From Selenomonas sputigena (GTDB taxonomy: Bacteria > Bacillota > Negativicutes > Selenomonadales > Selenomonadaceae): DNA of 64,000 bases. Positions 46,536-48,063 of the stretch are shown here, in pieces. The notes under the pieces were generated by a model, which was not told the DNA's origin, ran no database searches, and was given only the letters and a program-made list of their open reading frames with translations. Positions within the stretch are counted from its first letter, which is position 1. Each line of letters starts with the position of its first letter. A program made the position numbers and the translations under genes. The stretch spans positions 2,243,255 to 2,307,254 of the forward strand of contig NZ_CP110383.1 of NCBI RefSeq assembly GCF_026015965.1, read 5' to 3'.

Positions 46536-47435
46536 TTATAGTCGACAGAATTTACAAAATCTTATGGATTGTCGTCTATTCTTGAACATCTGATTCAGGC
46601 GCATGGCGAGGGATTTCTTCATGTAGGTTTTGGAAATATCGGTCATTCCCTCCGTCGCATCAATCAGCGCGTCAATGCGCGGTGCCGCGAGCTTGATTCT
46701 TGGGACGATCTCCAAAATCGACCGATGCAGGTCAGCCGGAGGCGTTTTCAAGATTTCATGGTAGAAGATTCGCTTTCCTTGATGGCGATAGACAGAGCAC
46801 AAGTTATACTCTTCTATCTTCATCAAATTTTCATCTTTAAGTAGTAAATCCTTTCGCTCGTCCGATGATAACGGAGATAACGATGAGCCACAGTCATATA
46901 CAGGCGCAGGCTTTATTCTACCTGCTGAATCTTCCAAGAGTCCCCAGTTATCCAGATGGCGATCTGGATTGCCAAGCAAGGCATCAACGACAAACATATT
47001 CCAAAAATGTTTTTTTATAGCGAATTTATTTACTGGAAAATCAAAGCGCTCGATAATTTCGTAAACATCTTCAATCGTTGTCGTATATGTTTTGTCGCTT
47101 CCTGTATCATGATGCCCAATCTTACTGAACTCTAAAAGACGATTACCATTCTGACAAAAATCTTCGCAAACAACGACGATTTTTTCTTTTCCAGTCACAG
47201 GCTCACAATATTTTGCCAAGAATGTATTTTGTGCCGGAATCTGCAAAGCTTGAAATATTTGGCAGCCGATATGCTCCGAAAACTGATTGCCTATATAGCT
47301 GACAGAGGTTTTCTTAGAACGTGGCGGTTCGGGAAATTTAACCATATAGATTTTTCCGTCAAAAAGAAGTGTCCTCTTTTTTTCAGAGCCACCATAACGA
47401 TTAGGACGCCACTTCGCATGTGTCAGATCAACCAT
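46536..47435 (-). CDS. HipA/CtkA-like serine/threonine kinase
   Basis: The 299-residue protein resembles the C-terminal kinase lobe of HipA-family toxins, and especially stand-alone CtkA-type kinases. Visible motifs are the ATP-lysine region GKIYMVKFPE, the catalytic loop GNPDRHLDNWGLL (HipA N-x-D-R-H-x-x-N pattern) and the metal site APVYDCGSSL in place of DFG. No N-terminal HipA domain is present. It is markedly more AT-rich than its neighbours, suggesting transfer. The start lies inside the upstream small gene's stop region, 7 nt after GGAGGG, so the two are translationally coupled. It probably acts as the toxin of a toxin-antitoxin operon; this is inference. Confidence 0.83.
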   Translation of the reverse strand: MVDLTHAKWRPNRYGGSEKKRTLLFDGKIYMVKFPEPPRSKKTSVSYIGNQFSEHIGCQIFQALQIPAQNTFLAKYCEPVTGKEKIVVVCEDFCQNGNRLLEFSKIGHHDTGSDKTYTTTIEDVYEIIERFDFPVNKFAIKKHFWNMFVVDALLGNPDRHLDNWGLLEDSAGRIKPAPVYDCGSSLSPLSSDERKDLLLKDENLMKIEEYNLCSVYRHQGKRIFYHEILKTPPADLHRSILEIVPRIKLAAPRIDALIDATEGMTDISKTYMKKSLAMRLNQMFKNRRQSIRFCKFCRL

Positions 47436-47649
47436 CTATCAACCCTCCGAAATATGTCAACATTTCCTCCCGTGTGCCTGATGAAATATCGCCTTCCTTC
47501 ATGGCGTATTTTGTTTCAGAATAAAGATGGTGCATCGCAACAATCATTCCTATATCATTCTTTTCCTCATGCGCTCGATAAAACTCTTCCATATAGTCGC
47601 GAAGAAGTTCTTCGTAATCTTGCGGATTGTACTTATAGATTGCTTCCAT
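47428..47649 (-). CDS. Small acidic protein coupled to the HipA/CtkA-like kinase (paralogue A)
   Basis: The 73-residue protein shares the pattern K-YNP-x-DY ... M-x-x-F ... MY/LY-x-x-TK-x-AMKEG-x-x-S ... R ... L-x-Y with the 74-residue protein encoded just upstream, so they are paralogues. It has no recognisable DNA-binding helix-turn-helix. It overlaps the kinase start by 8 bp and supplies its ribosome site, the usual layout of an antitoxin gene. GAGGG precedes its ATG. Family name not known to me; the antitoxin role is inferred from position. Confidence 0.75.
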   Translation of the reverse strand: MEAIYKYNPQDYEELLRDYMEEFYRAHEEKNDIGMIVAMHHLYSETKYAMKEGDISSGTREEMLTYFGGLIDG

Positions 47650-47694
47650 GATGAATCCCTCATTTCGCCGAATCGTCCGAGTGATTCGTATGCC

Positions 47695-47708
47695 ATTCTA
47701 TATAGAAT
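47695..47708. promoter_or_regulatory. 14-bp perfect palindrome, candidate operator
   Basis: ATTCTATATAGAAT lies 45 bp upstream of paralogue A and 1 bp from the stop of paralogue B. It overlaps sequence that could serve as a -10 region for an internal transcript. Confidence 0.6.
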
Positions 47709-47709
47709 A

Positions 47710-47934
47710 TCAAGCATTCGGAATCAAATCGTCATAATAGAAAAGTATATCATCGCGGTCTTTGGGAGACAGCATTCCTTCCTTCATCGCCTGTTTCGTG
47801 TCGTTGTACATGCGCCGCCATGCGTGTTCCATGAGGAATACGTCTCCCGCCTGCATCGCTTCGGCGAAAAGCGTCATGCTTTCTTCCAGATAGTCGACGT
47901 AATCCTTCGGATTGTATTTGATTCGCTGCTCCAT
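47710..47934 (-). CDS. Small acidic protein, first gene of the HipA/CtkA-like module (paralogue B)
   Basis: The 74-residue protein aligns along its length with paralogue A (MEQRIKYNPKDY versus MEAIYKYNPQDY; TKQAMKEGMLS versus TKYAMKEGDIS). The ATG at 47934 follows GAAAGGAGCGG, so the longer frame to 47997 was trimmed. A TATAAT -10 (47972-47977, minus strand) lies about 40 bp upstream. It probably heads the three-gene operon. Family not recognised. Confidence 0.75.
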   Translation of the reverse strand: MEQRIKYNPKDYVDYLEESMTLFAEAMQAGDVFLMEHAWRRMYNDTKQAMKEGMLSPKDRDDILFYYDDLIPNA

Positions 47935-48063
47935 TTTGCCGCTCCTTTCTTCGCGTACTTCTCTTTTTCTTATTATACCACAGACAACGAGCAACAAAAC
48001 AGCAGCATCATTTGAACGGCACGACTCGGGAAGTTGTAAAATAAATTGACGTAAAGTTTCCTC

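Follow-up and report, generated by a model that had tools for sequence, protein, structure and literature searches.

Two paralogous small proteins and a CtkA-like kinase in Selenomonas sputigena: a probable toxin-antitoxin module

A stretch of 64,000 nucleotides from Selenomonas sputigena (contig NZ_CP110383.1, positions 2,243,255 to 2,307,254; hereafter the window, with coordinates counted from its first nucleotide) contains a HipA-like kinase gene preceded by two small genes that resemble each other. This raises the question of whether the small proteins are antitoxins of the kinase and, if so, why there are two of them.

The three genes and the kinase

Both the coordinates and the strand given for the three open reading frames in the preliminary description were borne out. 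All lie on the minus strand and are read in the order small protein B (47710-47934; 74 aa from an ATG, with a GGAG ribosome-binding site), a gap of 60 nt, small protein A (47428-47649; 73 aa) and the kinase, the proposed toxin (46536-47435; 299 aa). The kinase start lies 8 nt inside the end of A, and translational coupling of these two genes is therefore plausible. A possible -10 box upstream of B (TATAAT, 47972-47977, minus strand), preceded by TG as in an extended -10, was recognised by eye and is absent from the list returned by a consensus scan. That the three genes form a low-GC operon was likewise upheld, the module having a GC content of 42.4% against 54.8% for the window, which places it in the lowest 0.6% of equal-size stretches. 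Two genes flank it, read as clpX-like and methionine-synthase-like, and no secretion genes were found among the window's reading frames adjoining it. Comparison with a sister species (genome G030) indicated purifying selection on all three genes, with dN/dS values of about 0.18 (A), 0.22 (B) and 0.13 (kinase).

The kinase had been described as carrying HipA catalytic motifs without the HipA N-terminal domain, on which Pfam, a phmmer search of the PDB and alignment all agreed. It matched Pfam HipA_C with 43.3 bits (cutoff 30.5), as expected of a HipA-homologous kinase, and its best PDB match was CtkA (JHP0940) of Helicobacter pylori (PDB 3akj; E 1.2e-36, residues 2-281, nearly full length), the next best being a weak, HipT-like one (E 8.5e-4), which places it on the CtkA branch. 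Like CtkA, it is a short HipA-type kinase lacking the N-terminal HipA subdomain (N-subdomain-1), its alignment beginning at the Gly-rich loop (GGSEKK), followed by the ATP lysine (YMVKFP), catalytic (GNPDRHLDNWG) and metal-binding (PVYDCGSS) motifs. In a 15-row alignment the Gly-rich loop, ATP lysine, helix-C glutamate, GNxDRHxxNWG and YDCG were common to the relatives with few departures, and because the catalytic motifs are kept across these fifteen relatives the window kinase should be active. Its C-terminal tail is altered: it ends MFKNRRQSIRFCKFCRL, where close relatives end LLPALKK, so that the relatives' tail has been lost. The corresponding 3' end of the gene (46536-46590) is unlike that of all close relatives, which suggests a rearrangement near the stop codon, and the altered C-terminus may impair the window kinase. 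Used as a single sequence, the kinase found no match in genome contigs or viral contigs; an alignment of kinases did.

The small proteins and their linkage to HipA_C kinases

A and B are indeed paralogues, as had been proposed, with 71 residues aligned at 39% identity (E 2e-14 for a single comparison), and both contain the shared motifs already picked out, which read YNP[QK]DY and TK[YQ]AMKEG. Neither had a match in the Pfam, NCBIfam, PHROGs or PADLOC libraries. An AlphaFold2 model of A built with 24 homologues was an all-helical three-helix bundle (pLDDT 93.6). The view that the small proteins do not look like HipB also stood, there being no helix-turn-helix (HTH) family match for A or B and no HTH in the confident model of A; identity with a HipS-type or HTH-type antitoxin was rejected on the lack of a family match and on the all-helical model. 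The family is acidic, with a net charge of -2 to -10 over 22 rows (-9 for A and -6 for B). Structural neighbours of the small protein, S20-like and other three-helix bundles, were set aside, as this arrangement is common and uninformative on function (best Z 10.4, Foldseek E above 0.3).

Wide occurrence of the small proteins away from the kinase would have spoken against a module, and a small-protein profile was run against 189 genomes from the taxonomic family, 380 from the class and 398 from the phylum. Every strong match lay at a HipA_C kinase or its remnant; among the 380 class genomes these numbered 21 of 21 places, in 11 genomes. At one of them (G030:740098) an intact small protein precedes a kinase remnant comprising the first 20 residues. 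Two weak matches in another family (E 1e-4 and 7e-4) were small reading frames overlapping CtkA-like kinases, and as that search made no use of the kinase they independently confirm the linkage. Two other weak matches (L166 and L170) fell inside long open frames, and in one genome (G018) the small protein precedes a different HipA_C kinase, which is longer (366 aa). The basic unit consists of one small protein and one kinase, with the small gene upstream and an overlap of 4-8 nt in nearly all cases across the clade. Both features, a partner strictly linked to the toxin gene and a coupled gene pair with the small partner first, are those of type II toxin-antitoxin systems. The toxin-antitoxin assignment made in the preliminary description is thus well supported by comparative sequence evidence, and the locus is probably a type II module with a CtkA-branch HipA-like kinase as toxin, B as its cognate antitoxin and A as a retained paralogue from a second module.

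Decayed copies offered a further view of the pair. In one copy (L002) the reading frame of the kinase breaks after about codon 50 and B is frame-shifted, with A intact; in another (L024) a split kinase accompanies an intact small protein; and in a third (L050) the kinase is deleted and the small protein intact. Among the Selenomonadaceae loci of the clade to which the window kinase belongs, every intact kinase seen came with an intact small protein of its own type, a contig-end fragment aside. CtkA is reported as a secreted pro-inflammatory kinase of a tfs3 element, working with a type IV secretion system (PMC5536186), from which it might be supposed that the small proteins activate, chaperone or help to secrete an effector kinase and are not antitoxins. 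Such a role is highly improbable, however, given their persistence where the kinase is broken or deleted, the HTH fusions of phage relatives described below and the lack of secretion genes beside the window copy.

Two other copies in the window's own genome have distinctive surroundings. One module (L003:3224-3715) adjoins a ThsB-like TIR protein (PADLOC ThsB, E 1e-64) and a small membrane-like protein, and a degraded copy (L002/L004, first 900 nt) adjoins a CRISPR-like array with seven copies of the repeat core, mostly about 66 nt apart.

Two putative antitoxin types before one kinase

Duplicated possible antitoxins ahead of a single kinase had been noted as an unfamiliar layout. The layout does recur in Selenomonadaceae, but the norm is one small protein and one kinase, and the order of the genes varies; an intrinsically tripartite module as a general rule was rejected, as most relatives have a single small protein. 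Kinases of the B type were found in the window, L005, L006, L008 and plasmid locus L172, and those of the A type in L002, L007, L009, L010, L022 and L023, each with a small protein of its own type in the locus. A is also present in four of the five B-type loci. The order is B-A-kinase in the window, L002 and L008, A-B-kinase on the plasmid and B-kinase-A in L006 (genome G119), and the fifth B-type locus, in G030, which shares its chromosomal site with the window module, consists of B with one kinase followed by A with a second. The plasmid operon (L172, NZ_CP017043.1) is carried by a mobilizable Selenomonas plasmid, close to a ParM partition gene, and the annotation of its B-type protein as imidazolonepropionase looks mistaken.

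For two B-A-kinase loci, the distances of the kinase to single-partner loci correlated with those of B at r 0.94 and 0.97, and with those of A at 0.50 and 0.65. Kinase phylogeny and distances thus say that B, and not the adjacent A, is the predicted cognate partner of the window kinase. Between the window and G030, A is nearly the same (dS 0.13), compared with dS values of 0.73 for B and 0.78 for the kinase, and A was therefore exchanged separately. The simplest history is one of two tandem modules in which one kinase was lost or converted and both small proteins were retained. Selection on A suggests that it is still functional, for example in neutralising A-type kinases.

It could instead be argued that A and B act together, as a heteromeric antitoxin or sensor or in a two-step control, so that the double layout is functional and no relic. 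The purifying selection on both genes and the recurrence of doubles in several Selenomonadaceae loci, including the plasmid, are in keeping with this. However, the variable order of A and B, the prevalence of single-partner relatives and the history of A, which differs from that of B and the kinase, make joint action unlikely. Retention of A from a second module is therefore preferred, and the natural A-B-kinase and B-A-kinase operons make partner specificity directly testable.

The wider kinase family and the proposed mechanism

A search with the kinase alignment, using one genome per species, returned at least 566 relatives, of which the best 80 were kept together with four viral-contig loci. 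In a tree of 105 sampled kinases, made by a quick method and with some long branches, the window kinase fell in a 26-row clade (support 98) from Selenomonas, Centipeda, Defluviitaleaceae, Oscillospiraceae and Bacilli, almost all of which have the same small partner upstream. The exceptions were one locus with no recognised partner (L093), one with a different 94-aa reading frame in the same 8-nt overlap (L160) and one fragment. Another, more distant group of CtkA-like kinases has a related small protein, S, which matched the window-type small proteins in a profile-profile comparison (probability 83%, E 8.5e-6) and has the same predicted three-helix layout. In three phage loci (L163, L164 and L174, the HTH of the last by reading) a protein with a Cro/C1 HTH as its N-terminal half and an S domain as its C-terminal half is encoded directly before the kinase. 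HTH fusions are typical of autorepressing antitoxins. This classical, HipB-like antitoxin layout is the best indication that small proteins without an HTH neutralise their kinases.

Comparison with known systems defines what is new at the locus. Like HipBST, it has three genes, with a short HipA-type kinase and a small antitoxin candidate just upstream and overlapping it (PMC6581861, PMC8262856); HipS, however, resembles HipA N-subdomain-1 and HipB carries an HTH, whereas A and B are paralogous three-helix bundles (A as modelled), and the module contains neither a HipS nor an HTH-bearing HipB. With HipBA it shares the HipA_C catalytic core, and the HTH-fused relatives in phage loci recall HipB, but A and B have no HTH and the kinase has no N-subdomain-1. 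The short kinases HipM, HipI, HipJ and HipG (about 280-320 aa) also have adjacent putative antitoxins, which differ in being HipN, HipS, resolvase-like or Stl-like and, for HipM, HipI and HipJ, in lying downstream (PMC8262856). In that survey of Hip kinases by Gerdes et al. CtkA is absent from the main text, and a DNA-binding partner is generally required (PMC8262856). CtkA itself differs from the proposed toxin in its reported role as a secreted, pro-inflammatory kinase, and no small antitoxin of it is described in PMC5536186. A search of published open-access papers found none that treats PDC-M03, links HipA_C with CtkA or describes a small protein as a partner of CtkA. The claim of a new module accordingly holds for the partner proteins and not for the kinase, whose family is already known from CtkA and as a PADLOC candidate. 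The small proteins point to an uncharacterised antitoxin family absent from the profile libraries searched, and CtkA-type kinases, so far studied as a gastric-disease effector, would gain a likely origin as intracellular toxins.

The PADLOC candidate is PDC-M03, a candidate phage-defence system whose PDC-M03A profile the kinase matched (E 1.7e-30); the small proteins match no PADLOC model. The kinase might thus serve in phage defence, as an effector that the small protein restrains until infection frees it; this would be compatible with the toxin-antitoxin reading as one use of the module. The ThsB-like gene and CRISPR-like array beside sister copies and the existence of phage and plasmid relatives fit such a use, but the neighbours of the window copy are ordinary, and defence is a possibility that we regard as somewhat doubtful.

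For the toxin-antitoxin module itself, we infer toxicity, direct binding, a target and a role for A as follows. The small acidic three-helix protein would be made first and in excess by means of translational coupling, and would bind and silence the kinase, either replacing the missing N-subdomain-1 or sitting at the active site. Loss or displacement of the small protein would release the kinase, which would then phosphorylate an essential protein of the host, with an aminoacyl-tRNA synthetase the likeliest candidate, and growth would stop. A translation enzyme is proposed as the target by analogy, because HipA, HipT and Caulobacter HipA proteins act on aminoacyl-tRNA synthetases (PMC6581861, PMC7029023, PMC8262856). 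B would be the cognate antitoxin of the window kinase, and A would be an A-type antitoxin that stems from a neighbouring A-kinase module, as a leftover or a copy, and has been maintained by selection, perhaps because it neutralises A-type kinases encoded at other places in the genome or brought in by plasmids.

A clostridial sister clade comprising 62 of the 105 sampled kinases has no small partner, and the kinase fold alone is therefore not necessarily toxic. These solitary kinases adjoin housekeeping genes, as might be expected if the window genes, too, were a benign, non-toxic kinase-regulator pair. Such a pair is very unlikely, however, in view of the patchy distribution (21 strong places in 11 genomes, with 189 family genomes searched), the low GC content, the multiple copies, the carriage by plasmids and phages and the decay of the kinase in several copies. 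Returning to the toxin-antitoxin reading, a broader and rather speculative extension is that CtkA kinases make up a large branch of toxins within the Hip superfamily, with its own antitoxin superfamily, a three-helix domain used bare or behind an HTH. Selenomonas might then keep one kinase with a pair of antitoxins that differ in specificity, the second giving protection from foreign or sibling modules, and the solitary clostridial branch might have turned into regulators of lysyl-tRNA synthetase.

Seven of the 62 partnerless kinases (L112, L123, L131, L136, L143, L147 and L157) lie directly downstream of lysS, with a 4-nt overlap in L123, and two further members of the clade lie one downstream of gltX and one upstream of valS (L100 and L111). 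A reading of the gene downstream of the kinase in L108 as trpS was rejected as wrong. The lysS neighbourhood requires five changes on the kinase tree. These lysS, gltX and valS neighbourhoods may in part reflect chance or shared ancestry; they hint at aminoacyl-tRNA synthetases as possible targets, and the pairing of lysS with a kinase gene suggests a candidate substrate.
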